Assembly: GCA_000697665.1 (NCBI GenBank) | Contig: KL197712.1 | Span: 254,991-318,990 of the forward strand | Length of the DNA: 64,000 nucleotides | From: Jaapia argillacea MUCL 33604 | Taxonomy: Eukaryota > Basidiomycota > Agaricomycetes > Jaapiales > Jaapiaceae | Direction: 5' to 3' | Shown: in pieces, positions 11,203 to 44,378 of the stretch | How the letters are laid out: each line of letters begins with the position of its first letter | How positions within the stretch are numbered: position 1 is the first letter of the stretch | Program-made: the position numbers and the translations under genes | Notes under the pieces: model-generated | Told to the model about the DNA's origin: nothing | Databases searched by the model: none | What the model saw: only the letters and a program-made list of their open reading frames with translations

Positions 11203-13020
11203 CTAATATACTTCATAGAAGTCCTCATCACCGTAGCCACGATCACTCTCATCTGATTCCCCATTAGCACAATGTCCGTCCCAATCAATACTTCCAACAT
11301 TCTCCCCAATCCGATCAACAACATCTCGATCAATATGCTGACACTCTCCTAACACCAACATCTCCACTCTCCTCCCACATTTCTCTCTCCATGTTAATGT
11401 GTCCACAAGAACTTTGATGAAGGGAGCTGAGCTGTCGCCATAGAAGAATTCTTCAAGGTTGGCGTCTTGGATGGAGAGGGTTATGAGATTCGGCAGGAGG
11501 ATTGAGCTTCCAGTCCTATTATCAGGGGCCGGACTCGAGCTGGACGATGACCCTGTCATCGCTGCCACAGGACCAGCTGGTCCAACAGTCACCAGTTCAT
11601 TCTTGGCCCTCAGCTCACGCTTCCGGAGAGCAGCGAGAATCTCAAAACATGCTCTTCCCACTACAGTCAAGGTCCTCACTCCCCGCAATTTCTCGAACAG
11701 ACCTCTCCACCAGATTTCCTTCATCGCACCCACACTGCCACCGTCCATAGTGATGGCATGGATCTCTTCCAAACATGTCAAATTCATCGTCCAGCATCCT
11801 TGTGTGAGGATACTCCCGGTGGATGTTGATGCGGACTCGGATGGAACCTCTACTAACCCCAGATAAATCTCTATATGAGGCGTTGGGTGCAAACGTAGAG
11901 CAGCGACACCTTCGGCAGCGTCAATGTTCCCTGCCATGGAGTGAGAAGGGGCAAAGGGGCAGTCGTAACCTCTCAGAGTGATTGCAGACCAAGAACTTGA
12001 TATCTGTAGGGATAGGATGGGTACGGATATACCAAGGTTTTTGGCGGAGGCGAAGAGAGAAGTAAAGTGTGATAAGGTGGGATCAGATATCGAGAGTTTG
12101 AGGGCCGTGGTGGTGGGGAGAGAGAGCGAGGAGAGTAGGTGCGAACAGCAAAGGGCTTCACCTTCGAGGTGGAGGAAGATTAGCACGGCTAGGAGGACGG
12201 TGAGATGCCTTGGATGGGAATTGGAAGATGTAGGGGGTAGACAATTGATTAGAGTGAGTGATTCCAATTGAGGGTTACTCCTCAGGATCTCGAGCAGTGT
12301 CGTGAGAGTGGGTCTCCCAAATTCCTGTCCTGAGTTTATGCTAAGTTTCAAAGATGTTAATCCACTCAACATGGGGGAATCCCAGCTCGGAGTACAGCCA
12401 GTCAAATCGAGTCGGCGAAGCTAGGGGGTTACAAGGCTGAACGCGTCTTTGGGGATGAGGAAGGCATCTCGAGTTATCCAAACACATATCCTGAGTGAGC
12501 TGAGGAGGGGTGCTGGGGAAGAGAGTGGTAAAGTCCTGAGATCGGAGGGTTTCAATTCGAGCACTAAGTCTCGGATGCGAGACATGTGCTCCAGAGCCAT
12601 GCGAATTTGAGGCATGAGTCTGGAGAATTGAGAAGTAACGTTGACTTCGAGTGGCGCCATCTTTGAACGTGTAATCATCTCAGGCACCCACTTAGGTCTG
12701 TGGAATGGCAGCGAACACCATAAACTCGGAGTAGCGACGGCAACTTCCCTCCAATATCGACAGACATATGTTATCGCTATCCACCAGACAGCGGGGCGCC
12801 CAAAAGCATACTCAAGCGAAAGGTCGCGTTGCTTGGCATATTGGACAAATATGTTTGCAAGAACTTCAGATGGGAGACGAGAAATGGGCACGAGAGAGTT
12901 GCGTTTAGTACGCAGTTCGCGGATGGATTCGAGATGCGCGGCGATCTCGGAGTCGATGCTGGCGAGAGCGGGGTCCGATTGATGGTTGGCGTCTGGCAGA
13001 GAAGCATTACGTTGTGCCAT
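11203..13020 (-). pseudogene. F-box-like paralogue 5 with one in-frame stop
   Basis: From the ATG of MAQRNAS (13020) to the normal acidic C-terminus the frame is continuous over 605 sense positions, except for one TAG at 12421-12423 (codon 200). The paralogues have TCG (Ser) there in the context VTPSLRRLDLTGC. The F-box (ISRLPSEVLANIF; TYVCRYWREVAVATPSLWC) lies before the stop, so a 199-residue truncated F-box protein could still be made. No frameshift is seen, which points to a recent nonsense mutation, a base-call error, or read-through. The leader upstream is intact. Confidence 0.8.
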
Positions 13021-13259
13021 TTTTTGCAATAGAGATGTGCTGAGATAAATTACGATACGGTCAACTGGGCATTGTGCAGACAAACAGTAACGACAGACTG
13101 TATCGCAGGACCAGGAGGTTGAGCCATAACAACCTGGGCAATTGGACCGGATGAGAATGAGGCCTGATGTGTAGGTGGAGGCTCTGTGGTATCCAAAGCG
13201 TATCGTTGCGGTGTAACTGTAAGCCTACCAAGTTGTGGTGTGGTGTTGCGGAGAAGATC

Positions 13260-13322: not shown

Positions 13323-13377
13323 AAAAGGACTGTAAAAGGAAACTTGTGGACTTAGTGCAAGACGGCGACCTCAACAA

Positions 13378-15980
13378 ATGACGCCCCCTTCGAAAGCTCC
13401 AATGTCTGGTCTTCGAACAGTCAAACGCGACTATTCAGAACCAACACCTAGCCAAGACTCTGCCTCAGAAATTCCCTGGGATCCAACGCCTCCGAAACCA
13501 CTGACGGGCATCGAGAAAAGACTCAGAGACATCCAAGATGCTATCGAGAGTAAAATCACCTCCTCTGAACGACTCCTCAAGAAATCGCCGATGTTGACTC
13601 TTCCTAAATCTACCCCGACTTCCATGATCAATTCCGCACCAGCTTCCACCTCTCACTCGTTTCCGAACTCGAACAAGCGGCCTTTCAGCTCTCAGCAACC
13701 TGGACCTTCGTCCAGCGCGCCTCCGCCAGCGAAAAGGAGACAGCTGCCCGAGACTTGGGATCTACTCTCAAGCAGAACCGATTTCAGCGAGGAGCCACCT
13801 TTCCATTCGAATCACGCGTCGACGTCGGGATCGGGCTCGAGGTCCAACCCTATTAGTATTGGTGGGACGACGACGTCGGCGAAGGCAGCTTCAAAGCCTG
13901 CACCCGTGTTTTTGAGTAAAGAACAGACGCATATACTCGGTTTGGTGAACGATGGGATGAGTTTGTTTTACACCGGTAGCGCTGGTACGTGATCCACATC
14001 TCCTTATCACCTCTGGCGGTCCTTGGACAACTGTGATCTTATCGACGCGAGTTTTTGGCGCGCATATACCCTGTGCTCTTGGATTTGCGCATCCGAACTC
14101 TTGAAACGCTCCCAAAAGCTTGTAACTGGAGTTGACTTTTGTTTTTAGGAACGGGAAAATCGGTCCTCCTCCGAGAGATTATCAAGACTCTCAAGAAGAA
14201 GTTCATCAAGATCCCAGACGCGGTTGCCATTACAGCATCTACGGGTACGTCCTAACTTATTTTATCACCTTAGCCGATCTCACTCTTGGTCTATTCTTCG
14301 TACGCAACAGGTATCGCAGCGTGCAACATTGGCGGCGTCACCATCCATTCCTTTGCTGGTATTGGCTTAGGAATAGAAAGCGCTGAAGATTTGACCATGA
14401 AGATCAGGAAGAACAAGAAAGCAAGTGCCAGGTGGTTGAGAACTAAGGTATTGATTATCGATGAAGGTGGGTTTTGCATCTTATGACCATATTGCCGCGA
14501 AGGGGAAGTCTGATACTGGCTTAGTTTCGATGGTGGATGGCGATTTGTTCGATAAACTGGCTCGGATTGGGAGTTTATTGAGGAAGAGACCTGAACCCTT
14601 TGGTGGGATCCAGGTATATTTCCCTTTGTCTTCGCGTTGTTTCTTCACTCACCCTCCTGCCACTGCTCTCTTCTATCAATGATCACATAGTTGGTCGTGA
14701 CAGGCGACTTTTTTCAATTACCACCCGTAACGAAGGGCAACGTTCAAGTCAAGTTTGCTTTTGAAGCGACGCGATGGAATGAGTGTGTCCAAAAGACTTT
14801 TAATTTGACGAAGGTGTTCAGGCAGACTGATCAAAGTGCGTATTTCTCTCCCGCCGCACCTTCGAACGACCCTCAATACTAGATGCCGTCTTTCGCACCC
14901 CACAGCATTTGTCGACATGTTGAATGAGATGAGGTTTGGGAGATTGTCGGCGAATTCCATCGCGAGATTCAGGGCATTATCGAGGGAGGTTGAATATGAT
15001 GACGGTTTGGGTCCCACAGAACTGTAATTCCCTGCTCTTCTTTCCCTTTTCCATCCAGTGCTAACGCCCCACCCCAGCTTCCCCCGCCGCGAAGACGTCG
15101 ATCGATCCAACACTACTCGTCTCTCCCGCCTGCCGACTCAATCGCAGACCTTCTTCGCCTCTGATACGGGTCAAATCGAAGGGCCTCAGCGTGAAAAAAT
15201 GCTAGCCAATTTCATGGCTCCATCCCAGCTTACTCTCCGAGTCGACTCGCAAGTCATGTTGATCAAGAATGTTGACGAAACTTTAGTCAATGGGAGCATG
15301 GGGAAAGTGGTGAGGTTTGTCGATCCTGCTACGTATGGCACTGAGAGTGATATGGACGGGGAAGTTGATGAGATCGGTGGAGGGGATGGAAAGGGTGGGA
15401 AAGCAGGGAGTGGGGGGAAAGTGGAGAAGAAACCAGCCGGAAGTGGCAAGCTGTTGCCTATTGTCGACTTTGTGATTCCAGGGAGGAGGGAGACGAGGAG
15501 GGTTTTAGTCACCCCTGAGAGTTGGAAAGTGGAACTTCCGAACGGTGATGTTCAAGTTGCGAGATCACAGGTTCATTTTTTATCATCGTTTGTGGGGTTT
15601 GTTACTGACGCTGTTGCGCAGTTGCCGTTGATTTTGGCGTGGGCCATGTCGATTCATAAATCCCAAGGGCAGACTCTTGAACGGGTCAAAGTGGATCTTG
15701 GAAAAGTATTTGAAAAAGGTTGGTTCCACTATCGTCTCCCTCTCTACGCAGCCCTCGAGACTGATAATGTTGTATTACTCAGGTCAAGCATACGTAGCGC
15801 TTTCCCGTGCAACATCTCTCGAAGGACTTCAAGTCCTCAACTTCGATCCAAAGAAGGTAAATACGCACCTTCTGTCTGTTACCATACTGTCCGGGTACTG
15901 ATAGCAGATTGTCTGGATAGGTCACCGTGCACCCGAAGGTTGTGGAGTGGAGTAAAACTCTTGAAACGATCACAGAGTAA
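13378..15980 (+). CDS. PIF1: PIF1-family 5'-3' DNA helicase
   Basis: Ten exons join to 644 codons: 13378-13984, 14149-14244, 14311-14466, 14525-14613, 14691-14835, 14906-15023, 15078-15570, 15622-15718, 15783-15856 and 15921-15980. The N-terminal ~180 residues are Ser/Pro-rich and disordered. The helicase core then shows all key motifs: Walker [16 protein letters not shown], motif Ia [13 protein letters not shown], Walker [21 protein letters not shown], and the C-terminal [10 protein letters not shown] and [17 protein letters not shown]1 enzymes unwind G-quadruplexes and act on telomeres, replication forks and mitochondrial DNA. A 51-nt intron at 15571-15621 is in frame and stop-free, so retention would add 17 residues. 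Confidence 0.93.
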
Positions 15981-16369
15981 TGAGTCATTTGTCTTGGCGA
16001 TAACCAGGGCGGCTTCAATGCGTGGATGCTCGATCACACTTTTGTAACTTATTGTACTGTTTATGCGAAGTCGTGCATTTGTAAAATACAGTGGACATCC
16101 ACACTTATACGGCTACTACTTTTCTGCATAGGCTTTGAACCCATCCTCAGGGTGGTTTCTCTGCTCCTTCCATCCATCCTCTCGGTATTTGAACCAGGTG
16201 AGTACCCATTTCATCTCATTCTTTACCAAATCCACCTCCTGGAGCTACTGGCTGATTGTGATCATTACCATGTCATCCCCTTACGAGTAACAAACACCAC
16301 AATAACATATGAATACATATAACGGAAGAGAGTCTCTGCGACATTCCCTTCTGGCTCCCAGGAAGTCCT
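15981..16369. other. Convergent 3' region between PIF1 and FunK1
   Basis: No gene seen. The 3' untranslated regions of two convergent genes presumably lie here. Confidence 0.6.
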
Positions 16370-18841
16370 TTAGCTTTCACTTTCTTTCTCGTCTACACTT
16401 CGTAGCCCCGTATTACCCCTTTCCTGACCGCTACGGCCTGGCGAAAGCTGGCGGAGGACATCCCCAAGCCAAACTAGTGGTATCCCGACAGAGTGGTCCT
16501 TGATCTTCACGAAACATTTCTGGAGACCAACTACACCTTCTGGGAAAACAGTGTTGTCAATCGGGCCACCAGGCAAGGGAAGCTCGGCCTTTGAGTCAAG
16601 GTGTTTGAGCCTGAGTCCCATGCGATCGAGAGCTTTTGCAGGTGCTTGAAATACTGGGGGAAGAGTAGTGGTAATGTCGGATTCGAGGCCGGCTAGGAAG
16701 AACTGGTATCGAGATCGAGAGCCGAGGACACGGGGAAAGATTTCGTTTGCTCGTCGAATCCGGTGATCAACTTCCTCGACGCTTGTTTCCGCGCCCGTGC
16801 CATTTAAATACAGTGAGGAGATGGCGACCCACCACAGCGACTCGGTGTCGTGAAGAGGATTATGAGAAAATGAACACCGCGGCTCTGGGGGCGGTTGCGG
16901 AGGTCGCGGCGAAGCTGGACTGAATATATCTTCCAAATCATCCACTAGGCTGACGTGGTTTGCTGGCAGGTACGACTTGAACATGTAATCCATGAACTCC
17001 ACCTCAACGGACATGAAGTCCAGTGTTCCCTAGCGAACGAGCCGGATTAGCACTGTGTAAGTGAGGAGACTTAGAGAATGCACTGTCCGTACTGCATGAC
17101 CACCTTCCCCATCAATCTTCTTGGCGTACTCGAGATCGCATAGCTTGCCCCCGTCACCAACTTGGAGAATGTTGCCTGAACTGATGTCACGGTGAACCCA
17201 ACCACAAGCATGCATGAGATCAAGAGCTGCATAGATTGAACTTCCATTGCAACTTGATGAAGAGTTAAAGCGACCGACCCTTAGCACCATCTACCAGAAC
17301 ATGGAAGAACTTGTCTAATGATTTGACTTCAAAGACGGCGACGCCAACCTCCTGAAAGACAACACGATAATGCACCTGGGGGTGGACATGACGGGAGTGG
17401 GAGACGGGTGCACGAGTCAAATTAGGAGCATCAAGTGTGGGGGAAGCGCCGGAACTATTGACATCTGGACGGCTGAGAGCGAGGGGTTTGCACCACAGGT
17501 GGAATTTGCCAACGTGGCTACCGGAAACTTCTGCGTTTCGCATTGCGAGATCAAGTGTTCGGTCAGCAACGTTATCGATGAGGACGTCGCCATGAGTGAC
17601 AATAGTCAGGAAAAGCCGCTGAAATTCCTTGAGGGAATCTGGCCCTAAGGCTTCGACATCAGTTTGTAGTCGTTGGTAGATGTCTGCCTCCCGCAAACGG
17701 TCGACATCCACCCAAACATCTCTTAAGGCAACCTCTTCCCCAACCTCTTTTCCTTCATCGTTCAGACGGCGAGCTCGAAACACTCGAGTTCCCCGGCCTC
17801 GAATGGCGCCCGCACCCAAGTTTGAGAGGAACTTTGATGAGCGGAATTGCATGGCTTTTCCTTGGGAATGAACCGTAATGTCGAAGTAAGTTCTGTTGTC
17901 GGTTACATGACGAATGATGGTGGGGTCCCATCCCATTGAGACACGGCCACTATAGAGCACCGACGAGACGAATTGAATCAGCTTCTCATGCTCCTAAGTA
18001 AATCGTGCGCATTAAACATTCGGCTCCCGGAAAGGGATGGTCAAAGAACCCTCACGGTTATAAAATTGAACGGTTGGGTGACCAAGACAATTTGACGACA
18101 GCAAAACCATATCCTGGTGGTCGTGTCCTCGATTGTGAAGCCCAGGGTGAACCTGCGACAAGGGTCACTTCGCATGATGTGATGCATGCTCCAAATGACC
18201 TTTGCAGTGACCTAGAGATGGTGATAAGAAAATGACTGCAACCCAAGAGCCGAACTCACATCATCATCAAGACTGTTATTATCAGTGTTGGCTGTTTTGC
18301 ATTCCCCCGCAACACCAATATTGTACCAAGCACTCAAACGACTCTCCGACGAACTTCCACTCCTTACCGTCGAGGCGATAGGATCCAATTCAAAATATGC
18401 GTCTGGTCGTGTCAGGTTTGTTCGCTCCAAGTAAGGAACGCGATCGGGGTTATCGACGTATTGAAATCCTGCGCGTTGGCCGCCATCGCAACACGAGACG
18501 ATGGCTTGCACAACATTTTCTAGCCGTTTAAACACAGCTTGCTCTGTGCCGATGATTGTCGCAGGATTGAAGGGGAAGGCCGACCACCTGCCCCCAATAA
18601 TGTGCTTCTCCGCTATAAGCTTCTTCACGGAACTTGCATCGACGTGAGAGGGAGGCAGGATGTGGTCTGCGAAGTACTGGAAGGAGAGTTCTGGGACGGA
18701 GGAGCCGAGGTCCGCCAGGATGGCAGAACGGTCAAGGCTAGGAATTCCAGAACGATATGCACCACCGATGGCGTGCTTGACAATGGTAGGCGTTTCGAAG
18801 GTGATAGCAGATCCTCCCGAGGGGAGGGGGAGGGCGTCCAT
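16370..18841 (-). CDS. FunK1-type protein kinase
   Basis: Five exons (18841-18260, 18211-18056, 17993-17279, 17226-17084, 17029-16370) give 751 residues. FunK1 hallmarks are visible: a long N-terminal half containing the GWDPTI segment, the catalytic loop HRDISSGNIL (about residue 495), DLEYAKK in place of the usual DFG, and GTLDFMSVEV. The lysine expected in the small-lobe strand appears as Arg in VALRDVW (about residue 337), which may affect ATP binding. FunK1 kinases are expanded in multicellular basidiomycetes and presumed to be Ser/Thr kinases; the target is unknown. An alternative upstream start in another frame cannot be excluded. Confidence 0.87.
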
Positions 18842-19273
18842 GTCCTCTGGCGGTAAGCAAGTTAAATTTGGGGGTGGTCGGAGTCGACATGTTCAACTTG
18901 AGTACCTGAGCGGCCCAGGTCGTGGAGCGGCTCCACACAAATTAGAAGGCAGAAATATTACCAAACTCGACCATAGCCCATACGCGTACTTGTGTGGGCT
19001 GACCGACCGAGTTTTGGACTCCCCTTCACAGTTTGCAGGGACTAAGCATGATTTGATTGACTTGTCAGACTTCGGCTCACCTTGTCGGCTAGTTTCACTT
19101 CGATTTCCTCACGAACTTGCAAACGAGTTTTTACACAGTATACACGCCATAATATTGATACAAATGATGGGGTAACGCTACAAGATCGATGAAATAGGAT
19201 TGCTTCGGACGAAAGCCTTCAGGTACAAAACTAAATTGGGGAACCAATAATTGTTGGTGGGGTGGGGGTTGTC
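18842..19273. other. Gap between FunK1 gene and next gene
   Basis: No gene supported; it should hold the FunK1 promoter and the 3' flank of the next gene. Confidence 0.5.
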
Positions 19274-21562: not shown

Positions 21563-23523
21563 CCAGGATGCGGGACGAGAAAACGCACCATGGAGGCCTG
21601 AGCCAAAACGGCTATCGATAACGGTGGAGTTTGTGCCTCAACTCTACCCCGTCCATACATATATCCAGAACGCGTCCATTCAGAAACCATCGGTGAAGGT
21701 CCTGTGGACTCGAAACTGCTGGCAGCGTGGTATCTGGAGTATCTCTTGGCCTTCGTTGTGGACAAATTCTTGTATTTTGGGGTGTTGAAAAAGTTGGATG
21801 ACAAGGAGTGGATTGGGTGAAACGAAGCCAGAGAGAGGGGCAGGTGGGGAAGGTGGCTGGTCGAACGGTTAATTCCAGGTGCTCAGAATATACAGAGAGT
21901 TCTGTAATCCTCCAGCGCGAGTGGTCAGTCCAGGGTGCAATTAGAACTTCACCGTGTGTGCCGTCGCGGACTTTCGAAGCAGTTCCCGATGAGGCAGGGT
22001 CCGTGGCCCGTCTTCTCCAATCCTGGACACTCACCCACCTTCATCAGGCCCGAAATTCTTCTATCAGTCGATGGTTCGATATCTCTGTCGCTTTGGAACG
22101 GCGTAATTTGGTCCGCCACTAGTTGGAGATTGGGGGGCAATCCTCCTTACTTTCAGCCGATGAGCGTCCGACAGTCGCACACCATTTCCCAATGCTGGAT
22201 ATCTTGTTTTCTAGTCTTGAATCTTTCGTAGTTGCCACTTCCCTCCTCTTGGCAAGTTTCTGGCGACTTCAACCTTCAAAAACGTTGTCGGCAGACGAAG
22301 GGGCCGCTCCGACGCTCCAACACATACTGTATCATGATCTTGCCCTAGCTTGCCCGTTGTCTGGAACGCGCAGGAGCCCACCGATCGAGTTATCAGGGTG
22401 CGAGCTTGATTGGAACCATATTATACGACGGTGAGTCCCTCCCAACTCATTTTGAACGGATGTTGTTCGGAATCTTGCATCGATTGGATATGTTGGAAAA
22501 TTGGCTGAGGAATCTTTGGTCCACCGCACCTGAGCGCGCTGTCCCTCTGGTCTGAGATGGCTCCGTGTCGCAAAATGGGCTTGATCACACTAGATATCGA
22601 GTATTCATCTTGCGCTGGATGGTTTGATAGGTTCAGTCGAATTCATCGATGACTTGGTTGGAACGAGACTTGCCTGCCAGGTTCCAGGTGACATATCGTC
22701 ACGTATGTCACATAACGTGACATCGTTGGGATTCGTGAGGGGGCGAGGGCGAAGAAGGGCAAAGATGGCTTCATTCACAGAGGATATTACTGAAGGAACA
22801 CATACTGATGTTTAGTGACTTTTCTGCTGCATATAGGGAAAGAAGCCGGTCTTTCTCCACGTCCGAACATTTCCTGGCATTCGTGTGGGTCCAGGCGACA
22901 CGGAAGCAAACCTACATTTGGGCGCAAAGCATTGAAGCCAACGGGCCTAGTCTCTCGGGACACCTTCAAGATATCACCCCACCAATTGCAAGGTTCACGA
23001 GCGCGGAAGATGGAAGGTGGAGTGATTGGAGCTCGTCCTCACTCCGTGGCTCTGAAACTGTAACTTGGGCTTGGGCAATCGATTCCCAAGCTACGCCTCG
23101 CTCCAACCTCACTCTCATCAAGTAACTCCATCCGTTGCTTTTCACCCTCCTGTTGGCGACGGCAACATTCGAGGCTATGTCCCTCCATCAGAACGGGCAG
23201 AGGCCAAGACTCCCACCAGTTACTGCGACGGTCTGCCGTATTTTCCTTTCCGCACCCATGGCCCGCAAAGGTCGATGGGAGACCACGCTCGCAGTTCTTT
23301 CCAAAGCAAATCAAGAGCAAGCAGGATATAATGGCCAGTTTGTTGCCGAGGTCCAGTAGTTCTCTCTCGCGGCTGTCGAGAATACAAGAGTCAAAGGTCG
23401 CACTTTCGCTTCCCTATTGGCTGTTCAGTGTCTCCAAAACGGGCAACACTCTTTCCTCCCAAACAAAATTCGCGCATCCGAACCCTGAACGCGCCTGATG
23501 AAATTTCTAAAATGTTTGTAGTC

Positions 23524-23530
23524 TATTTAG
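23524..23530 (+). promoter_or_regulatory. TATA-like box of repeat-unit gene, copy A
   Basis: TATTTAG, followed by CCG.GGCATGTGG, lies 142 bp before the first codon position. It recurs at 27736 in copy B and 32361 in copy C at matching distances. A pyrimidine-rich leader follows in each case, which is typical of a fungal core promoter. Confidence 0.5.
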
Positions 23531-23665
23531 CCGAGGCATGTGGTCCCCTGCATCCCTTGCCTTCCCTTTCGACTTTCGTATCTTCTTGATCTCCTTTCTC
23601 TCTCAATTTTTGGCCCTTGCTGTTCTGTCGGCAAAGTAGCATCACGATTCACCTCCTACACCTGG

Positions 23666-24242
23666 GTGCGCGTTGAGGAGCGACCTTACCCCTCTTTCAC
23701 CCTCGCCGTCAGCCAAGCACAACATACCCCGCTCGAGGTCATCGATCGCCGTTCCCATACCCATCCGTATACAAGGTTGTCCTCACTCAGGCTCGACGAT
23801 CCGTTAATGGTAGTATTCCTCTTCCCTTTCTATTCGCTTTCTCTCGATGATCTAATTCTTCGTGAGAAGGTGACTGTGGACTATCGCTATGGTGACCCCA
23901 TGTTTTTTCCAAGTCTGGCGTGGGTGTGTTCGGCGCGTTATGCTACGCCGTGTTGTTTATTGACTTCGACGCGCTTCGACAGCCTGACATCACACCCGAG
24001 ACGGAAGATAGGGAAAATGCTGTCAACCTGGAAGCTGCCTTGGACAACCATGATGTGGAGGATGGAACTGGGTCTCCTCCGAGTCTGCGCAGAAGTCGTA
24101 AACGATTCTCAACCCTGGTCATTGTTCGTTCCCATTTAATACCCCTCGTCCTCGCTACTCACCCTCACTCTTCCCTTAGGATTTGGCTCTCGCAATCAAG
24201 AGGAAATGTCAGGGAGTGTTGACAGGGAGCAAGGCGACTTGA
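23666..24242 (+). pseudogene. Repeat-unit small gene, copy A (start codon lost)
   Basis: Exons 23666-23809, 23870-23923, 23983-24123 and 24180-24242 join to 134 codons in one frame. They match copies B and C codon by codon. The position of the start ATG in B and C is GTG here (TGGGTGCGC versus TGGATGCGC), so normal initiation is lost unless another start is used. Exon 1 contains RPYPSF and THPYTR; exon 3 contains ENAVNLEAALDN and RRSRKRFSTLVI. No known domain recognised. Confidence 0.6.
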
Positions 24243-25947
24243 GCTCTTTCCCGTACGACTACCGTGGATGTGGTAGCATAAAGTCGGTGTCCTCTGTTTG
24301 TGTCCACATGGTCAACGCTCCTGTTGCTCAGGTCTACGGTTCACACAACTGATCTTCCAATGTGTCTGCACGGAATTCTATACATGTTATATACATGTTA
24401 CTCGCTCGTCCCTCTGGCATTACATGTGTGAATTCTTGTCGATCTTGTCATTGATGATAGTCCACTCAAGTACTCAAATCGTGGTGCACTTGAACGACGC
24501 TGCGTGTATGAGAGACGGAGAAGCAGGGATCAGAATCTGGAGACTAGTTTATGAGCTCAAAGCGCCTGTGATAAATTCGGGATCATGGGGATGGTATTCA
24601 AGGTCTGTCCCAGGATGTCAGCAGAAGGCGAAGTCCGCGTGGTAGTACGTTTGTCTCGTAAGTGTCGTGGCGGGTTGCGATCAAGTAAGGGTAAGATCAC
24701 AATCAGTCGATAGCGCTCATCGCAAATGCATTACATTGATATTCTACCAAGGGCCAAAGGAAACCATGGGTCATGGGCAATTCACTGTACAACATGCTGA
24801 CGGCTTGCTCAACATTCCACTACATAGAGGTACAACAGGCTAAGGTGCAGCGTGTCTTCGATGACAGGCACGGTCATAAGTGATAATTTCTAAACGGGAT
24901 GAAGGTGATGGAGCTCGAGTTCGAGTCCACCAAACCTTCCAAAATCCAACTGGAAAGCCACTGGATGCGAAGGACGCGACCTGTCACCGACGACCAGCTA
25001 TCGGATAGTGTAAAGCGAGAAGACGCGAACTAATGTAGTTCCAAAATGGAGGAGTATCCATATCCGAGTCATATGATCTCCAGATATCTTCGATACACCC
25101 ACTCGGCCGCTACTCTTGGTTGCAGACGGGAATGAGAGATCCTATCCCCGAACTACACATATCTGCACACTTGTGATGACTTCTGTTTGAACTATTGCTG
25201 TGAACCGGGCATAGGGGACGAATTAGTTCAGTGTAGAGGTGACAGTGCATGTCGCATGATCAAAAGACTCACAAGGGTGGTCTTGAAGCTGGGCAGGTTT
25301 CCTTATACCTAGAAGCTTGAGTCGAGAGACCAACATGTCGACTAGGTTTTAATATAAGTCTGTACAAACACCTCATCGGGGGTTCATTACCCTGAAACAG
25401 AATGGGCAGCACGGTTAGCATTCTTATCGTCGGCGTCAGTGTAGTGCTGCAAGACAGATTAGCGCTCCTGGACTCGTAGCGTTGTCAGTGGCGATAAGCT
25501 ACGAGCGGCGTTCTGACCCATCCGAATAACTGAAACGAATCGGCGGTGAAGCTTTGGAGTCGCATAGTCGTCGCGTAGGAGCATTTGTTTTTGAGACGAC
25601 AATGGAGGTAGGCGATATTGTTGGTGTCGTCGCGGCGACTACGATCAGAGCTCAAAACATGATAGGTGCGGAGGACAAGGTGATATCTGTTGGGATACTA
25701 CCGTACTGTGGGCGCATTGCTAAGCAGCATGCGAATGGCGGATGAAAACAAAGAAAACGGACCTTCGAATAAAGGGATCCAAGCTCGCCGCCAACATCAG
25801 GGAATGTGTGTCGCATCCTACTCAACAGGTCCCTGACCGTCGGGGTTTCGAGGGAGACTGCGCGTTAAGTTCTTAGCAAGCGGTCGGTCGGCTCGAAACT
25901 GGCGGCGGCGGCGTTTTGACGAGAAAACCTAGCAATATATCAGTGGA

Positions 25948-26268
25948 TTAATATTCATCGATGCAAGCGTTAGGGACGGCGCGACTTGGAATGACCGTAG
26001 GAGACAAATCGGGGGGAGGATCCAAGTCAGAATTTGGGCAGGTGGAAGCGATTGTGTCCCAGCGCTGCTCTGGTAATTCAGCTCGGTCCACTGGAGAGGC
26101 TGGAGAAGTTAGAACCTGAATATCGAGGATAGTGAAGAGTTCTGGAATAATTCCAGCGGTCTTCCGCCGCCTCGCGGACTTTCGAAGCGTGTTGCGGAGT
26201 TCCTGATAGGGCAGGGTCCGTGCATCGTCTTCTCCAACCTCGGCAGGCTGGCACTCCCTCATCTCCAT
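25948..26268 (-). CDS. Small conserved ORF of the repeat unit, copy B
   Basis: An ATG-started minus-strand frame of about 106 residues (MEMRECQPAEVGEDD start; the core LPYQELRNTLRKSARRRK is basic). Copy C has the same frame at 30530-30913. Differences between B and C include 3-nt and 9-nt indels that keep the frame, which suggests coding. No domain recognised. It is head-to-head with the rest of the unit. Confidence 0.4.
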   Translation of the reverse strand: MEMRECQPAEVGEDDARTLPYQELRNTLRKSARRRKTAGIIPELFTILDIQVLTSPASPVDRAELPEQRWDTIASTCPNSDLDPPPDLSPTVIPSRAVPNACIDEY

Positions 26269-26380
26269 GAGAATTGAAACACTGGAGCTGATGGCTCGAT
26301 GTCTATGTCGCTTTTGAACGGCACACTTTGGGCACACGACGAGTTGGAGATTGGGGGCTCCGTCGGAGCGTCAATCTTCC

Positions 26381-26626
26381 ATGTTTTCAGCGACTAGGCA
26401 TCCCAATCACGCCCGGACCCACAAACCCTCGACGGCTTTTTTTGCTCTTGTTACCCTGTCATCGTCTTTGTCTGGGCTCTTTTTGACAGCGTATCTCTGG
26501 CGGGTGTCGGTGTCCAACAAGATTGCAGCCAAATTAAATGATTCGCTCGAGGCAGCACATTCCATCTTGACTGGGGGCATAGTGGGGGGCCGCGAATTAT
26601 TGGATCGGAAACAAAGCATACGACGG
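26381..26626 (+). CDS. Possible first exon with a membrane segment, copy B
   Basis: The frame from ATG 26381 gives MFSATRHPNHARTHK and then a hydrophobic run FFALVTLSSSLSGLFLTAYLW. It ends at ACGACG next to a GTGAGCC donor. Copy A has a different sequence but also a hydrophobic segment and the same exon end at about 22432. Copy C lacks the ATG. I could not identify the following exon, so this is only a candidate. Confidence 0.25.
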
Positions 26627-27818
26627 TGAGCCCCTCCCAAATCATTTTGAATAGACGTTGTTGGGAATCTTGCACCGATGGGATATGTTCGAAAATTGGC
26701 TGAAGGAGCATCGTTGACCATTGCCTTTGGGGTCCACCACACTCGAGCGAACTGTCCCTCTGGTTTGGGATGGCTTTGTGTCGCAAAATAGGCTTGATCA
26801 CACTAGATGTCGAGTCTTGATCTTGCGCTGGACGATTTGACCGGTTCAGTCGAATTCATCGATGATTTGGTTGAAGCGAGACTCGCCTGCTAGGTTTTAT
26901 GTGACGTATCGTCACACATGTCACACAACGTGACATTGTTGGGATTCTTGAGGGGGCGAAGAAGGGCAAAGATGGCTTCATTCACCGAGGATATTGTTGA
27001 AGGAATACATACTGATGTTTGGTGGCTTTTCTGTTGCATATAGGGAAAGAAGCCAGTCTTGCTCCACGTCCGAACATTTCCTAGCTTTCGTGTGGGTCCA
27101 GGCGACACGGAAGCAAACCTACATTTGGGCGCAAAGTATTGAAGACTTGAAGTCGACGGGCCTAATCTCTCGGGACACCTTCAAGATATCTCCCCGCCAA
27201 TTGCGAGGTTCACGAGCGCGGAAGATGGAAGATGGAGTGATTGGAGCTCGTCCTCACTCTGGCTCTGAAACTGTACCTTGGGCTTGGGCAGTCGATTCCC
27301 AAGCCACGCCTCACTCCAGTCTCACTCTCATCAAGGAACTCCATCTGTTGCTTTTTATCCTCCTGTTGGCGACGGCAACATTCGAGGCTATATCCCTTCA
27401 TCAAAACGGGCAGAGGCCAAGACTCTCACCAGTTACTGCGACGGCCTGCCCTATTTTCCTTTTTGCATCCATGTTCCGCAAAAACCAATGGGAGACCACG
27501 CTCGCAGTCGTTTCCAAAGCAAATTAAGAACAAGCAGGATATAATGGCCAGTTTGTTGCCTAGGTTCAGTAGTTCTCTCTCGCGGCTGTGGAGAATACGG
27601 AAGTCCATCGGCCGCATTTTCGCTCCCTATTGGCTGTCCCGCGTCTCCAAGATGGCATCACTCTTTCCTCTCATACAAACTCGCGCTTCCGAACCCTGAA
27701 CGCCGTTTGACGAAATTTCTAAAATGCTTGTAGTCTATTTAGCCGAGGCATGTGGTCCCCTGCATCCCTTGCCTTCCCTTTCGACTTTCGTATCTTCTTG
27801 ATCTCCTTTCTCTCTCAA

Positions 27819-28303
27819 NNNNNNNNNNNNNNNNNNNNNNNNNNNNNNNNNNNNNNNNNNNNNNNNNNNNNNNNNNNNNNNNNNNNNNNNNNNNNNNNNN
27901 NNNNNNNNNNNNNNNNNNNNNNNNNNNNNNNNNNNNNNNNNNNNNNNNNNNNNNNNNNNNNNNNNNNNNNNNNNNNNNNNNNNNNNNNNNNNNNNNNNNN
28001 NNNNNNNNNNNNNNNNNNNNNNNNNNNNNNNNNNNNNNNNNNNNNNNNNNNNNNNNNNNNNNNNNNNNNNNNNNNNNNNNNNNNNNNNNNNNNNNNNNNN
28101 NNNNNNNNNNNNNNNNNNNNNNNNNNNNNNNNNNNNNNNNNNNNNNNNNNNNNNNNNNNNNNNNNNNNNNNNNNNNNNNNNNNNNNNNNNNNNNNNNNNN
28201 NNNNNNNNNNNNNNNNNNNNNNNNNNNNNNNNNNNNNNNNNNNNNNNNNNNNNNNNNNNNNNNNNNNNNNNNNNNNNNNNNNNNNNNNNNNNNNNNNNNN
28301 NNN
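27819..28303. other. Assembly gap, 485 N
   Basis: Unsequenced bases. The 48 bases before (27771-27818) and after (28304-28351) are identical. Copy A has this 48-bp stretch once with no interruption. Confidence 0.99.
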
Positions 28304-28403
28304 GCCTTCCCTTTCGACTTTCGTATCTTCTTGATCTCCTTTCTCTCTCAATTTTTGGCCCTTGCGGTTCTGTCGCCAAAGTAGCATCACCGCCAACACG
28401 TGG

Positions 28404-28981
28404 ATGCGCGTTCGGGAGCGACCTTACCCCTCTTTCACCATCGTCGTCAGGCAAGCCCAACACAACCCGCCTGAGGTTATCGATCGTCTTTCCCATACCC
28501 ATCCATATACAAGGTTCTCCTCACTCAGGCCCAACGATCCGTTAATGGTAGGTATCCTCTTCCCCTTTCTTTTCGCTTCATGTCGACGATCTAATCCTTC
28601 GCGAGTAGGTGACTGTGGACTATCGCTACGATGACCCCATGTTTTTTTCCAAGTCTATCGTGGGTGTGTTCGGCGCGTTATCCTATACCGTGCTGTTTGT
28701 TGACCTCGATGTGCTTCAACAGCCTGATATCACCCCCGAGACGGAAGATAGGGAAGATGCTGTCAACCTGCAAGCCGCCTTGGACAACCATGTTGTGGAG
28801 GATGGAACTGGGTCTCCTCCAAGTCTGCGCAGAAGCCGTAAACGGTTCTCAACCCTGGTCATTGTTCGTTGCCATTTGATTCCCTAGTCCTTGCTAGTCA
28901 CCCTTACTCTTCCCCTAGGATTTGGCTCTCACAATCAAGAGGAAATGCCAGGGGGTGTTGACAGGGAGCAAGGAGACTTAA
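28404..28981 (+). CDS. Repeat-unit small gene, copy B
   Basis: Exons 28404-28547, 28609-28863 and 28919-28981 give 153 residues starting MRVRERPYPSF and ending KRKCQGVLTGSKET. One extra T in the run after CCCATG shifts the frame relative to copies A and C. Splicing as in those copies would then break it. Reading through their 59-nt intron restores the frame (59+1=60) and adds a hydrophobic stretch around VFGALSYTVLFVDLDV. No known domain. The shared parts are DYRYDDPMFF, AVNLQAALDN and RRSRKRFSTL. Confidence 0.5.
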
Positions 28982-30529
28982 AGCCCCTTCTCCTGCGTCT
29001 ACGGTGGATGTAGCGGCATAAAGTTGGTGTTCTCTGTTCGCGTCCACATGGTCAAAGCTCCTATTGCTCAGGTCTACGGTTCGCACAACTGATCCTCCAA
29101 TGTATCTGCACGGAATTCTATACATATTAGGCGCTTGTTCCTCCGGTGTTACGTGTGTGGAATCTTGTCGATCTTCTGGTTAATGAGAGAACTGTCCTAC
29201 TCAAGTACTCAAATCGTGGTGCACTTGAACGACAATGCATGTATGTGAGACGGAACCAGGGGCCAGAATGTGGAAACTGGTTCATGAGAAAAAACTGTCT
29301 GTGATGAAGTCGCGATGCCATTGGAGGTCTGTCCCTAGATCTCAGCAGAACGCGATCGCGAAGTACACATGGTAGTACATTTGTCTCGTAGGCGCCGTGA
29401 CGTGCTGCGATCATGGCAAGTAAAGGCAAGGTCGCAACCAATCGATTGTAACATGTTGATGGCTTGCTCAACATCCCATTACCTAGAGGTACACTACGCC
29501 AAGGTGCAGCGTGCCTTCGATGAGGGGCGCGGCCATAAGTGACCAATTCTAAATGGGATGAAGGTGACGGAGCTCGAGTTCGAGTCCATCAAACCGGGGC
29601 CTTCCAAAATCCAACCAGAAAGCCACTGGATGCGAAGGGCACGACCTGTCACCGACGACCAGCTATCGGATGGCGTAAAGCGAGAAGACGCGAACTAACG
29701 TAGTTCGAAAATGGAGGAGTATCCATATCATATGATCCCCAGATATATTTGATACACCTGCTCGGTCGCTACCCTTGGTTGCAGACGGGAACAGGAGGTC
29801 CTCTCCCCAAAACTACACATGTCTACACCATTGTTATGACTTCTGTTTGAACCAATGCCATGGGTCGGGCAATAGGGGACAGATTAGATCAGTGTCAAGG
29901 TGACACTGTATCTCGCATAATCGAAAGACTCACAAAGGGGGTCATGAAGCGGGCAGGTCTCCTTATACCTAGAAGCTTGAGTCGAGAGACCAACATGTTG
30001 ACCGAGGTTTTGATATGGTCGGTATTAACACTTCATCGGGATTGATTGCCCTGGGACAGGATGGGCGGCACGGAACGTTCTGGGATCGTCAGGTCGGTGA
30101 GGTGCTGCAAGACAGATCAGCGCTCCTGAAGCGTTTTCACTGGCGACAAGCTACGAGTGGCGTTCTGACCCATCCGAACAGGTGACACGAATCGGCGGTG
30201 AAGCTTTGGAGTCGGAGAGTCGTCGTGTAGTGGCATCTATCTTGAGATGGCCAAGGAGCTGGACGACATCGTTGGCGTCGTCGGATCGCCTGCGATCTAC
30301 CTCACGGCACGATAGGCGCGGAGGACAAGGTCATATCTGTTGGGAGACTACCGTCCGAGTTGCTACCGCACTGTGGGCGCATTGTTAATCAGCACACGAG
30401 TGGTGGTTGAAACAAAGAAAACGGACATTCGGATAAAGGGATCCAAGCTCGCCGCCAACATCGGGGAATGCTGCGTCCCATCCTGCTCAACGACTGTCGG
30501 GTTTTCGAGGGAGACTGCCTGTTAAATTC

Positions 30530-30913
30530 TTAGCAAGCGGATGGTCGGCTCGAAAATGGTGGTGGCAGCTTTTTGACGAGAAAACCTGGCAATATATCGG
30601 CGGATTTATTGATGCAAGTGTTGGGGACGGCGCGACTTGGAATGACAGTATTACGGGAAGGATCCAAGTCAGAATTTGGGTAGGTGGAGGCGATTGCGTC
30701 CCAGTTCCGCTCTGGTAATTTAGCTTGGTCCACTGGAGAGTCTGGAGAACTTGGAATCTGAATATCGAGAATAGCGCAAAGTTCAGGAATATTTCCAGTG
30801 GTAGTCCTCCGTCGCCTCGCGGACTTTCGAAGCGTGTTGCGGAGTTCCCGATAGGGCAGGGTCCGTGCACCATCTTCTCCAACCCCGGCAGGCAGGCACT
30901 CGTTCTCCTTCAT
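30530..30913 (-). CDS. Small conserved ORF of the repeat unit, copy C
   Basis: Minus-strand frame of about 127 residues (MKENECLPAGVGEDG start; LPYRELRNTLRKSARRRR core), the counterpart of 25948-26268. The C-terminal end differs because the stop used in copy B is absent, so it runs into the junction with copy B. Unknown function. Confidence 0.4.
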   Translation of the reverse strand: MKENECLPAGVGEDGARTLPYRELRNTLRKSARRRRTTTGNIPELCAILDIQIPSSPDSPVDQAKLPERNWDAIASTYPNSDLDPSRNTVIPSRAVPNTCINKSADILPGFLVKKLPPPFSSRPSAC

Positions 30914-32360
30914 CACCGTGGAAATTCAAACATGTGAGCTGATGGCTCGATGTCTATGTCGCTCTTGAACGGCACAGTTTGGGTACACGACAAGTAGGAG
31001 ATTGGCGGGCTCCGTCAGAGCGTCAATCTTCCATCTTTTCAGCGACCAGGCATCCCAATCACGCACATACCCACAAACGCTGGACGGCTTTTTTTTGCTC
31101 TTGTTACTCTGGCATCGGCTTCGTCTGGGCTCTTTTTGCATGACAGCGTATCTCTGGCGGTATCGGTGTCCAACAGGATTGCAGCCAATTTTAATGATTC
31201 GCTCGAGGCCGCACATTCCATCTTGACTGGAGGCACAGTGGGGGGTCGCGAATTTATTGGATCGGAACCAAAGTATACGACGGTGAGTCCCTCCCAATTA
31301 ATTTTGAATGGAAGTTGTTGGGACCTCTGCACCGATTGTATATGTCGGGAATTCCGTCGCTCTAGTCGCGGTTGCTGTCGTCTCCGTGGTCCACGACACT
31401 CGCGCACACGGTCCCTCTTGTCTGGATTGGCTCTGTGTCGCATATTAGGCTTGATCACACTATATGTCGGGTCTTGATCTTGCGCTGGATAGCTCGATGG
31501 TTCAGTCGAATGCATCGATGAGTTGGTTGAAAGGAGACTTGCCTGCCTTATGTTCGGGTGACATATTGTCACGTGTCACGCTTGTGACATTCAATCCGTG
31601 AGCGGGTGGACGGGTCGGATGGAGGGCAAAGACGGTTTCATTTACGGAGGACTCAGCTGATGGAATACATACAGATAGCTGTGTCGAACTGTACGGAAAT
31701 GCCTCTGCTCCAAGAGAACAGTTCCACCATTCCCGACGACCAGTCGTCCATGATCAGGGGACACGGAAGCAAATCTGCATTTGGATGGGAGTGGACCTCT
31801 TGAAGCCAGCGCGTCCAGGCCGCAGGTTTTCCTCAAGCCATCGCCCTAAAAGAGTCCTACCAGATGGATCGCTTTGTTATGGAGTGATAAAACCCTTCCC
31901 ATCGAGGATGCCTGCGAAGACAACACCCAGCGGTTGTTGCTCGCAGAGCCATATAAGCTCTGACAATCGGCTCTGGCAGCTGCTTGCATCCCGCTCTTGG
32001 TGACGAAGATCATGGTTCCCGTCCGCGAAGCAGACTGGCGAGCAGTGGTCGTATCCGTTCGACAGTCATACGACTCCTTCGATTTCGTGGTCGCACGCTG
32101 TACAGGTTGATGGCGCCCATATATGCAACGAATACCTTCAACACTCGTCGGAAGGAAGCAGAATATAATGTCGAGTTCGTCGTCAGTAGATCGTACTTTC
32201 TGCCGTCGCCGCGAAGAAATGTCAAGTCTATCAGGGCTGCTTCTGGTCCCCTATTAGCTGCCCGCGCGTCTCCAAAAGGGGCAACAGTCTATCCTCTCAC
32301 CCAAACTGGCTCCTCCCGAACCTGAACGCCGTCTGATGCAATTTCCAAAGTCCTGCAGGC

Positions 32361-32367
32361 TATTTAG
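32361..32367 (+). promoter_or_regulatory. TATA-like box of repeat-unit gene, copy C
   Basis: TATTTAG is followed by CCGGGGCATGTGG, 133 bp before the ATG at 32494. It is conserved with copies A and B despite the overall divergence. Confidence 0.5.
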
Positions 32368-32493
32368 CCGGGGCATGTGGCCTTCTGCACCTCTCTCCCT
32401 CTCTTTCCTCAGGCTTCCCATCTGGTTTATCGTCCTCTCTCATTTTTTGTCCGTCGTTGTTTATTCCACCAGAACACCGTCGCCGCTCTGATT

Positions 32494-33092
32494 ATGCGTG
32501 TCTTGGAGAGGCCTTACCCTTCCTTCGCCCTGGTCATAACACAGGCGCAATATTCCCCAATCGTGGCCGCTGATCACCGCTCGTATACCCACACCTATGC
32601 CAGGTCCTCCTCCTCCAGGTCCGAGGCCCCGTTGATGGTAGGTTTAGTTTTTCTGTGACTTTCATGATCTATTTGGCGAGATGGAATCTTATACTCTAGA
32701 TGACCGTGGACTACCATTATGACGATCCCATGTTTTTTCCAACTCTTTCGTGGGTACGTGGTCTCCCCATCCGCCGTCGTTATTCGTTGGCATTTTTATA
32801 CCGTTCTAGCCAGAAATTGCTCTCGAAACAGATGACAGCGTGGAAGCTGTTAACTTACAGGCTGCCCTCGACAATCGTATTCAGGCCGATGGGACGGCGG
32901 CTACATTGCGCAGAAGTCGGATGCGATTCTCAACTCTTGTCGTCGTACGTTCTCGTTTAGCAGTATCCGTCCTCCTTCTCAGTCTTCCCACAGGACTTGG
33001 CCCTGACCATCAAGAGAAAGTGCCAGCGCGCGTCGATAGGTTCTAGTAGAGCAACTGCAGTCCTTCCCTCTACTCCGGATATCCAGGCCTAG
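32494..33092 (+). CDS. Repeat-unit small gene, copy C (intact)
   Basis: Exons 32494-32637, 32700-32753, 32810-32944 and 32994-33092 give 143 residues with standard GT-AG sites. Exons 1 and 2 are the same length as in copy A (144 and 54 nt), and exon 3 differs by six nt in frame. Shared motifs are MRV.ERPYPSF, DYHYDDPMFFPTLSW, EAVNLQAALDN, LRRSRMRFSTLVV and DLALTIKRKCQ. No signal peptide, membrane segment or known domain is evident. It is the best-preserved member of this unassigned family. Confidence 0.65.
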
Positions 33093-33464
33093 CGTTGACG
33101 GGCTTGCTTGACATGTGTCGTGCCCCGTATACAGACCGCATCATCGACCCAAAATGTATCTATATCTACTCCCTGTCCTTCACTCTTCTTTGCTCGTGTA
33201 TAATATTTCAATTGTTCACAACTGCCTCGTCATTGAAGTACATCACATCCAGCTGAACACCGAACCTCAACAGATCAGCTGTGTGGCGGAAATCAAGACA
33301 ACACCTCGACATTTGTCCTGACCAGAAAGTTGGATTGGGTCAGCCAGAGAGAGAAAGCGCCAATGAGCTCAAATGAAATAACACCGGTGGATACTGGCAA
33401 CGTGGCAAGCTACATCACATCAGTTGTGACAACATGGAGTCCAGAGAACACACTGGCAGAGGCA
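33093..33464. other. Gap between repeat region and NAPE-PLD gene
   Basis: No gene seen; the similarity among the tandem copies stops at the left edge. Confidence 0.6.
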
Positions 33465-42188: not shown

Positions 42189-42656
42189 TGTTTATGCCGA
42201 TCACCGTACAGCAACGAGTTCACCGTTTGGATTATATCGATTCAGGGGTTATTGTCGTGACCGTCGTGACACGACGCGACAATGAAGGCAAGTATCACGT
42301 GATCTGCGACATTAGTGTCACGTCTCCTGGAATTCGTTCTTGATTATTTTCTTGATTTCTTGGTTGTGGATCCTACTGACGAAAAATCCACCTGAAGCCT
42401 GATTCATTTAAATTCGATTCCCCAATATGTTGTGGACCATTTCAGTGCGTTCTTCGACCCCCAAAACCCTGGGCGCTGTGAAGTCCATCCCCTCGCCGTT
42501 TGCTCACCCACACAACAGTCCAACGCCCAATACTACAAGAAGGGATGGGACCTAGTAAAAGGCGCGTTACCTCACAGTCATCTTGTAAATATCTTCCGTC
42601 AGACCTGACGTTATTGCTACAGCACTTCCGAAGGCCTCGCTCGACTCGAGCGGAAA
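42189..42656. promoter_or_regulatory. Divergent promoter with inverted repeat and E-box palindrome
   Basis: Shared upstream region of the Arb1-like gene (-) and the F-box gene (+). It contains an imperfect hairpin at about 42250-42282, bounded by ATTGTCG and CGACAAT, and the palindrome TCACGTGA at 42295-42302, with further GTGAC/GTCAC words on both sides. CACGTG is a bHLH (Cbf1-type) site in fungi. Regulation is inferred, not shown. Confidence 0.35.
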
Positions 42657-44378
42657 ATGAACAAACACATCAAGATCATAGGTGACTTGCGTTGCCAGTG
42701 GAACGCCTCCATACCCATCTCCGTTCTTGCCCCGGAATTACTCGCGAAGGTCTTCACTTTTTGCGAAGCCCAAGAGCATGGCGTCGGTACCACTCGTGAT
42801 ACAGTGAGACCTCGAGACCTGTGGTTCAAGGTCACCCACGTGTGTCGTTACTGGAGAGAGACTGCTATCCGCTGTCCGACCCTCTGGTCTCGCATTTTAT
42901 GTGACATTCCATCATGGGCGACTCTCTCCCTCCATCGCTCTTTGCAGGCGCCCATTACAGTAGACTGTGCGCATATATCCACGAAGACGGTCGAGGTGTT
43001 GACTGCGGCTCTGCAGCTCACGGACAGGCTGAAGAGAATTTCCTTGGAGGCATCATCCACTGATTTGGAATCTTTGTCCGCCATGCTGGACACTCTGTCA
43101 TCGCAGGAATTTACAATTCTCGAAAAGATAGATTTAACGTGTATCTCCCCAATGGAGCTCGCCGTTCTTGGAGTCACTGATACCTTTATATTCCCACCCG
43201 ACCTTTTCTTTCATACTCCTCGCTTGCGCAGCTTCGAGATCCACAACCTCACAGTTATCTGGGATCATCCTCTCCTCCACACCACCCAGTTGACCCATTT
43301 GAAGATCCAGCACACCCCATCACCTCCGACAATGACCCAACTCCTGGATGTCCTCGAATCTTTTCCTACCCTAGAGTCTTTGGATCTCACCAGTTCGCTA
43401 CCAAAATTGCCCAGAACTGCCAAACCAACGTACCCACCGGCCCGCGTTGTGTACCTCCACCATCTCTCCAGTCTAGAAATTTGTGGGCCCGTCTTTGACT
43501 GCGTTCAATTCACGTATCAACTTGCCGTGCCACCCACAACCACCCTCCGCCTCGTATGGGAGCTCAGCTGCAGAACCGATATATCATGTGTCGCAGAGCA
43601 CCCAATTATCCAAACACTTGGTGGTCCTGCCCCCGTAATCAAACACGCGTCGTTCGCTCACGCCACGGAACCCACTGCACTCCTCATCTCAGCGAGTCGA
43701 ATTTATGTCATCGGCTCAACCATTCCCCTCGATGTCCCTTCTATCACCACTGCACGCTTCCGCATTGGTATCCAGTGGACTGGCTGGTTTCAGTCACCGC
43801 TGATGATACACATCACAGCGGCAATGCGAACTGTTTTCAGAGTGATGGGCACACGCGAATTAGATTCCATTCTTTTCGGTCCTATTCCCACATTTTCGGA
43901 GGAGGAGTGGTTGGTGCTGTCTGATACTTTGAAAACTGTAGTCGCCGTGTATGCATGCGATGACTCAGTCGCGGGACTCGTATCGGCTCTATCGTTCAAG
44001 GGCGAAGGAGCAGAGTCGGCATCAGGACGGGCCGCCCAATCATCCCAGCCAAAGTCGAAGGGGAAGAGAACACATCGAATCAACCCTGCGGATGTATTCA
44101 TGCCGAACTTGGGACGACTTTCCTTAACCACCATCGACTTCCAGGCTGCCAAAACCGGCAGTACCACGACGTTCATGGATTGCCTACTTCGTTCGCTCAA
44201 GCTCCGCAAAAAGATCGGAGCCGGAATCGATACTCTGGTAATCGAACAATGTCGCAACTTATGGGCCGACGGAGATGCTGTTCAGGAGTTGGTGAAGCTG
44301 GTTGACGTGGAGTGTGATGATATTGTCTTCGGGGATCCCGTTGAATCACATGATGAGGATGGAAGCGGTGATGAGTGA
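42657..44378 (+). CDS. F-box-like domain protein, distant paralogue
   Basis: Single exon, 573 residues. It starts MNKHIKIIGDLRCQWNASI, so it lacks the long helix of the cluster members. The F-box spans roughly residues 18-80 (ISVLAPELLAKVF; THVCRYWRETAIRCPTLWS). The leucine-rich middle and acidic end (ESHDEDGSGDE) match the family architecture, but sequence identity to the 1-13 kb cluster is low outside the F-box. A basic insert PKSKGKRTHR lies near residue 475. Likely a Skp1-binding substrate receptor of unknown target. Confidence 0.83.
   Translation: MNKHIKIIGDLRCQWNASIPISVLAPELLAKVFTFCEAQEHGVGTTRDTVRPRDLWFKVTHVCRYWRETAIRCPTLWSRILCDIPSWATLSLHRSLQAPITVDCAHISTKTVEVLTAALQLTDRLKRISLEASSTDLESLSAMLDTLSSQEFTILEKIDLTCISPMELAVLGVTDTFIFPPDLFFHTPRLRSFEIHNLTVIWDHPLLHTTQLTHLKIQHTPSPPTMTQLLDVLESFPTLESLDLTSSLPKLPRTAKPTYPPARVVYLHHLSSLEICGPVFDCVQFTYQLAVPPTTTLRLVWELSCRTDISCVAEHPIIQTLGGPAPVIKHASFAHATEPTALLISASRIYVIGSTIPLDVPSITTARFRIGIQWTGWFQSPLMIHITAAMRTVFRVMGTRELDSILFGPIPTFSEEEWLVLSDTLKTVVAVYACDDSVAGLVSALSFKGEGAESASGRAAQSSQPKSKGKRTHRINPADVFMPNLGRLSLTTIDFQAAKTGSTTTFMDCLLRSLKLRKKIGAGIDTLVIEQCRNLWADGDAVQELVKLVDVECDDIVFGDPVESHDEDGSGDE

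Follow-up and report, generated by a model that had tools for sequence, protein, structure and literature searches.

How did three neighboring copies of one unit arise in a 64,000-nucleotide (nt) stretch of the Jaapia argillacea MUCL 33604 genome, and do they carry a protein-coding gene? The stretch (positions 254,991 to 318,990 of the forward strand of contig KL197712.1, assembly GCA_000697665.1), which we refer to as the window and number from its first letter, has a guanine-plus-cytosine content of ~50%. An original prediction, made from its letters, had described a tandem triplication of a 4.2-kb unit with a small-protein gene at its end. Our overall reading, which we hold at a probability of about 0.75, is that a protein-coding gene is present, that the outer copies (A and C) form an old pair to which unequal crossover added a chimeric middle copy (B), and that the copies are passing through birth and death. 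Support is good for the array, for the chimera and for the coding gene, and the mechanism of amplification is an ordinary one.

Self-comparison of the 64-kb window delineates three collinear copies arranged head to tail on the plus strand:

21950-26150, plus strand: copy A unit and its 3′ spacer, an older copy; left homology edge near 21964; collinear with C at 62% and with B at 87% and 84% right of the switch described below
26150-30790, plus strand: copy B unit and its 3′ spacer, a chimera; C-like left of ~26650 and A-like rightward (869 informative columns, single best switch)
30790-33100, plus strand: copy C unit, an older copy with an intact gene

Over 2.4 kb of aligned sequence (A 21964-24252 against C 30817-33068), copies A and C share 62% identity, and the main A-B and B-C matches in the spacer and upstream regions have blastn expectation (E) values of 0. 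The proposed triplication therefore holds as a tandem array of three, but not as three equal units, as it consists of the old A/C pair and the chimeric B. Five comparisons directed at the older duplication detected no homology between the right flank of C, the left flank of A and the spacers.

The composite nature of copy B is evident from the alignment of the three copies. Up to approximately A 22450, B resembles C (435/488, 89% identity) more than A (286/450, 64%). To the right of this position B is A-like, matching A at 264 of 307 positions in the next block and then at 587 of 653, where its identity to C is 0.53. There are 869 columns in which B agrees with exactly one other copy (106 further columns in which only B differs were set aside), and B sides with A in 14% of the 171 columns on the left and in 89% of the 698 on the right. 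Placement of a single switch point improves the log likelihood by 185.3, compared with a maximum of 7.6 in 300 shuffles, and its 3-log-unit support interval maps to homologous positions of the copies:

22448-22473, no strand: crossover interval in copy A
26643-26668, no strand: crossover junction in copy B
31300-31325, no strand: crossover interval in copy C

The switch positions of A and B are separated by 4195 nt and those of B and C by 4657 nt, the latter spacing being larger because it includes 485 N and a repeated 48-bp gap edge; removal of both yields 4124 nt. The segment duplicated in this way is collinear and 86.5% identical over 4123 aligned columns, and 17 of its 18 identity windows fall at 0.80-0.93 (the last, partial window is at 0.69). 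The array thus contains a chimeric copy that switches at homologous positions of two older paralogues, together with an intervening segment that was duplicated once, is collinear and is of a single age. These alignments, with a mosaic B and a 4.2-kb segment duplicated exactly at the switch, bear the hallmark of a single unequal crossover that involved A and C.

Copy B is interrupted by a gap in the assembly:

27819-28303, no strand: 485-N assembly gap in copy B, with 27771-27818 repeated exactly as 28304-28351

Because the gap edges are the same 48 bp, and A and B are collinear once the repeat is removed, probably little or nothing is missing here and the gap is probably spurious. The identical edges, and the 98% identity between A and B over 111 nt at the gap edge, could also suggest that B is an artefact assembled from mixed haplotypes or from a bad join. 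We consider this very unlikely, given that the switch lies ~1.15 kb to the left of the gap in uninterrupted sequence, that no interruption separates A from the left part of B, and that the duplicated spacer occurs on both sides. A transposon or a non-autonomous repeat family would likewise yield a repeated 4.2-kb unit, much of which lacks coding signal. Such an origin is very improbable for copies that stand in tandem, that include a crossover chimera and that have no further relatives in the window by self-blastn. In addition, inspection of the 25 longest inverted pairs, out of 48 between 21 and 34.5 kb, revealed no long terminal inverted repeats; the longest pair measures 29 nt at 72% identity.

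Unequal crossover between A and C suggests a model for the history of the locus. In a first step, a 2.3-kb unit composed of a far-upstream block, a promoter and a four-exon gene would have been duplicated, and the two products, A and C, would have drifted far apart in sequence. In a later step, mispairing between their conserved upstream blocks would have led to an unequal crossover that duplicated the 4.2-kb segment and created the middle copy. As the mosaic and the collinearity show, copy B joins the far-upstream left part of C to the promoter and gene of A, and the A spacer occurs a second time behind it.

The gene itself consists, in each copy, of four exons separated by three phase-0 introns of 49-62 nt with GT...AG boundaries:

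23666-23809, plus strand: A exon 1 (144 nt; begins with GTG instead of the ATG of B and C)
23870-23923, plus strand: A exon 2 (54 nt)
23983-24123, plus strand: A exon 3 (141 nt)
24180-24242, plus strand: A exon 4, stop TGA
28404-28547, plus strand: B exon 1 (144 nt, ATG)
28609-28663, plus strand: B exon 2 (55 nt when spliced at the homologous donor; a donor 4 nt before it would shorten the exon to 51 nt, 28609-28659)
28723-28863, plus strand: B exon 3 (141 nt)
28919-28981, plus strand: B exon 4, stop TAA
32494-32637, plus strand: C exon 1 (144 nt, ATG)
32700-32753, plus strand: C exon 2 (54 nt; 80-81% identical across copies)
32810-32944, plus strand: C exon 3 (135 nt)
32994-33092, plus strand: C exon 4, stop TAG

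Conservation of the 144-nt and 54-nt exons had been predicted; the first length is kept in all three copies and the second in A and C, whereas exon 2 of B is one nucleotide longer with its homologous donor. The same donor leaves B frameshifted. The in-frame indels were recovered as described: compared with C, copies A and B differ in length by 6 nt in exon 3 and by 3 nt in exon 4, ahead of the stop codon, both multiples of three.

Several lines of evidence indicate that these exons encode protein. A scan of codon substitutions between C and the other two copies (60 shuffles; null 95% value of 72.3 and maximum of 103.0) places exon 1 (105.1) and exon 3 (139.2) above every shuffle. The true frame (frame 0) is the best of six in all three copies, at -0.008 to -0.037 bits per base, near the -0.020 to +0.016 of held-out genes. 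A-C identities for exons 1 through 4 are 0.67, 0.80, 0.67 and 0.68, and those for introns 1 through 3 are 0.40, 0.46 and 0.69. Ratios of nonsynonymous to synonymous divergence (dN/dS, NG86) are 0.33 for A-B (bootstrap range of 0.17-0.72 for pN/pS, the ratio of the corresponding proportions), 0.17 for A-C and 0.09 for B-C, the values involving C being rough because synonymous sites are near saturation. The ratio near 1 that the original prediction had named as a sign against its own reading is, overall, not observed. A single coding indel separates A from B, compared with 5.3-5.6 expected from the spacer rate (P 0.024-0.033), an expectation based on 32 spacer indels, or 30 without end gaps. Relative to C, the coding exons are, by these sequence measures, under constraint.

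The fate of each copy can be read individually. Copy C retains an intact open reading frame (ORF) of 143 codons. Copy A has 133 codons that lack an ATG, as a GTG occupies the start position and no ATG is found upstream within the open frame; its first donor, GTAGTA, is also weaker. Copy B carries one extra T in a T run of exon 2 that shifts the frame under the homologous splice pattern, and a GTGGGT donor located 4 nt upstream of the homologous one restores an open frame of 132 codons. Copy B could use this alternative donor, or the extra T could be a sequencing error. Of the 133-153-residue products anticipated earlier, those of C and (without ATG) A fall in range, but no 153-residue product was recovered. 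When polarized by C, the changes in A comprise 10 nonsynonymous and 1 synonymous, with 9 unresolved (P 0.11-0.17 under neutrality), and are compatible with no constraint. The equivalent changes in B are 5 nonsynonymous and 8 synonymous (P 0.009-0.020 under neutrality), a ratio that suggests constraint, and the two copies differ by Fisher test (P 0.013). Only copy A looks relaxed; the description of the gene as fast evolving suits this copy but not the coding exons as compared with C. The present state would be one of birth and death, with C intact, B constrained despite a damaged but bypassable exon 2, and A losing its start codon and its constraint.

A number of observations weigh against the overall reading. 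Exons 2 (48.2) and 4 (67.3) are not significant alone against the null 95% value, the latter falling just short of it, and A compared with B alone has no coding signal over shuffles (34.4 against a null mean of 33.4). A score of 112.7 on the strand opposite exon 3 is a shadow signal; A-C intron 3 is as conserved as the exons are; and the proportion of synonymous differences (pS) against C is 0.64-0.73. Some donors look weak, namely GTTCGT in intron 3 of A and B and GTAGTA in intron 1 of A. The switch in B is imperfect: around A 23385-23450 B has a C-like patch, and A 22480-22710 contains mixed sites, both of which may reflect later gene conversion. Should all three copies be decaying, or never have been genes, their conservation would be that of recent non-coding repeats; the missing ATG of A, the frameshift of B with its homologous donor, the lack of signal between A and B and the neutral-looking changes in A would fit. 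This alternative is nonetheless unlikely, as exons 1 and 3 carry coding signal across the deep A/C split, the true frame is preferred, dN/dS values are below 1, coding indels are few and C is intact. The array and the coding evidence together support the view of a locally amplified small-protein gene with conserved exons.

Two short elements recur upstream of the gene:

23523-23533, plus strand: TATTTAG box of copy A, exact CTATTTAGCCG
27735-27745, plus strand: TATTTAG box of copy B, CTATTTAGCCG
32360-32370, plus strand: TATTTAG box of copy C, CTATTTAGCCG
22688-22702, no strand: GTGAC-N5-GTCAC element of copy A, conserved, ~1 kb upstream of exon 1
26901-26915, no strand: GTGAC-N5-GTCAC element of copy B
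31558-31572, no strand: GTGAC-N5-GTCAC element of copy C

The CTATTTAGCCG box, which had been noted as a promoter element kept even in C, indeed occurs once per copy, ~125-145 nt before exon 1 (a distance that, for B, excludes the gap). Allowing up to one mismatch, the window contains no other occurrence. Its count expected by chance is 0.43, and three occurrences were reached in 2 of 100 shuffles. The window contains four GTGAC-N5-GTCAC matches against 0.12 expected, of which three, one per copy, are homologous and so not independent. The fourth match lies outside the array at 54638-54652.

The crossover falls at the left edge of a conserved block, A 22448-22760, whose A-C identity of 73% is higher than that of exons 1 and 3. 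This block yields no coding signal in the codon-substitution scan. A conserved RNA structure is not convincing, as 1 of 53 predicted pairs is changed on both sides in three sequences (covariation term of 0.02), and Rfam gives no matches in the window at gathering scores. We infer that the block may be a conserved upstream control region. A possible second, divergent ORF had also been proposed; the spacer and left block, scanned in six frames, reach at best 37.3 against a null 95% value of 42.1, and the proposal is not borne out. A non-exon stretch in C (31917-32054) scores 70.7, just short of its null 95% value of 72.3. A short hydrophobic upstream ORF begins with ATG at A 23538 (33 codons) and C 32375 (38 codons), and at 27750 in B, where it runs into the gap; none of the comparisons lists it within its ten top-scoring coding segments.

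What might the product be? The expectation that it matches no known family agrees with searches of Pfam, of NCBIfam (C and A) and of PHROGs (C), none of which returned a family over its curated cut-off. Sequence searches of the PDB gave nothing credible, the one match being to NucB at an E value of 2, and another search gave none at E values up to 10. Pattern searches of viral and prokaryote genome contigs gave 28, 84 and 82 matches, none of which was confirmed by tblastn, although misses in these non-fungal collections say little. Literature listings and the beginnings of abstracts revealed no paper visibly describing this gene. The sole Pfam line for C at E values up to 1 is CENP_C_N (PF15622; E 0.066). 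The resemblance to the CENP-C N-terminal family consists of this weak line, and membership was rejected, as the 13.1 bits are far below the 27-bit gathering cut-off and no equivalent is seen for A or B.

A more specific proposal is that the product is a highly diverged velvet-domain protein of the VosA/VelB/VeA type. By eye, the pattern DRR..VD-x4-D-x2-FF..W..VNL is found in order, with the spacing of VD-x4-D-x2-F[FY] equal in VelB, A and C and VNL afterwards in both. However, hmmscan reports no Velvet match at E values up to 1 or 10 for any of the three copies, for pieces or for a consensus; a velvet-like positive control scores 219 bits in the same program, whose filters hide very weak matches. 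Comparisons of 15 sequence pairs under two matrices with VelB, VosA and VeA gave a best shuffle fraction of 0.138 in 30 tests, and hhalign returned a probability of 0.1 with three sequences a side. The DRR is not kept (DRL in B, DHR in C), and the RAR and PPP motifs are missing. Q.P..AR..G and R.P..PPP, invariant in three PDB sequences, are absent from the alignment of the copies, and assignment to Velvet factor PF11754 was rejected. The velvet domain is beta-rich, whereas exon 3 is modelled, at low confidence, as helices. A velvet relationship is thus highly improbable. The likeness consists of a handful of residues (VD-x4-D-x2-FF, W, VNL) whose order and spacing agree; the difference lies in the lack of a profile match or significant alignment, the missing core motifs and a product that is probably helical.

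Folding was limited to single exons, and both models are weak: exon 3 alone forms two helices with a mean predicted local distance difference test (pLDDT) score of 61, and exon 1 alone has no secondary structure (pLDDT 61). The C-terminal half (AVNLQAALDN...LRRSR.RFSTLV.DLAL.IKRKCQ) is probably helical. In no run of 19 residues does hydrophobicity reach the level of a membrane span (Kyte-Doolittle maximum of 0.94 in A and 0.85 in C). The N-terminal half is basic, and the C-terminal half has basic ends. Given these features and the lack of a long hydrophobic stretch, the product might be a small soluble intracellular protein, and it might conceivably bind another protein or nucleic acid.

Beside the array lie a gene for a Pif1-type helicase (13336-16047, plus strand; Pif1_2B_dom, 34.4 bits) and one for a fungal protein kinase (16370-18892, minus strand; Pkinase_fungal, 60.8 bits). 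Farther to the left is a tandem cluster of four F-box-like genes (3872-13224, minus strand; 71-83% identical by blastn among the main matches), all four of which pass the Pfam cut-off (26.2-28.0 bits against 24.3). Another F-box-like ORF lies at 1276-3147 (plus strand, 25.3 bits), and a further one at 42609-44378 (plus strand, 19.3 bits) is under the cut-off. Pfam also finds FGGY-kinase and coatomer-epsilon genes in the window, a gene content consistent with a filamentous basidiomycete. Other repeats include a diverged array at 52534-53460 (~110-320 nt spacing, 74-86% identical), which self-blastn detects but Tandem Repeats Finder does not list. The sequences at 53664-53691 and 54353-54380, ~660 bp apart, form an inverted pair of 28 bp without mismatch, and a dispersed direct repeat of ~195 nt, 89% identical, lies at 255-448 and 3511-3708.

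A broader and tentative possibility, which we think less probable than not by some distance, is that the copies represent an undescribed, taxonomically restricted family of small helical proteins found in mushroom-type fungi. The family would possess a conserved control block of its own far upstream (four GTGAC/GTCAC half-sites, ~1 kb before the gene and adjacent to the crossover point), and recombination there would repeatedly rearrange upstream regions and gene copies. If the protein is restricted to one fungal group, the locus offers a small natural experiment in how a lineage-specific gene is born, forms hybrids and is lost. The sequence of a single stretch allows the origin of a three-copy array to be dissected, with the crossover located to within 25 nt and a readable outcome for each copy. 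The array by itself reveals no new system.

Unequal crossover that leaves a chimeric copy is a general and ordinary mode by which tandem gene families grow. The locus described here resembles known arrays of this kind in its mosaic middle copy, in breakpoints at homologous positions of two older paralogues and in a duplicated spacer of uniform age. It differs from them in encoding a protein outside the families searched, and in a breakpoint that lies in an upstream non-coding block rather than in coding sequence.

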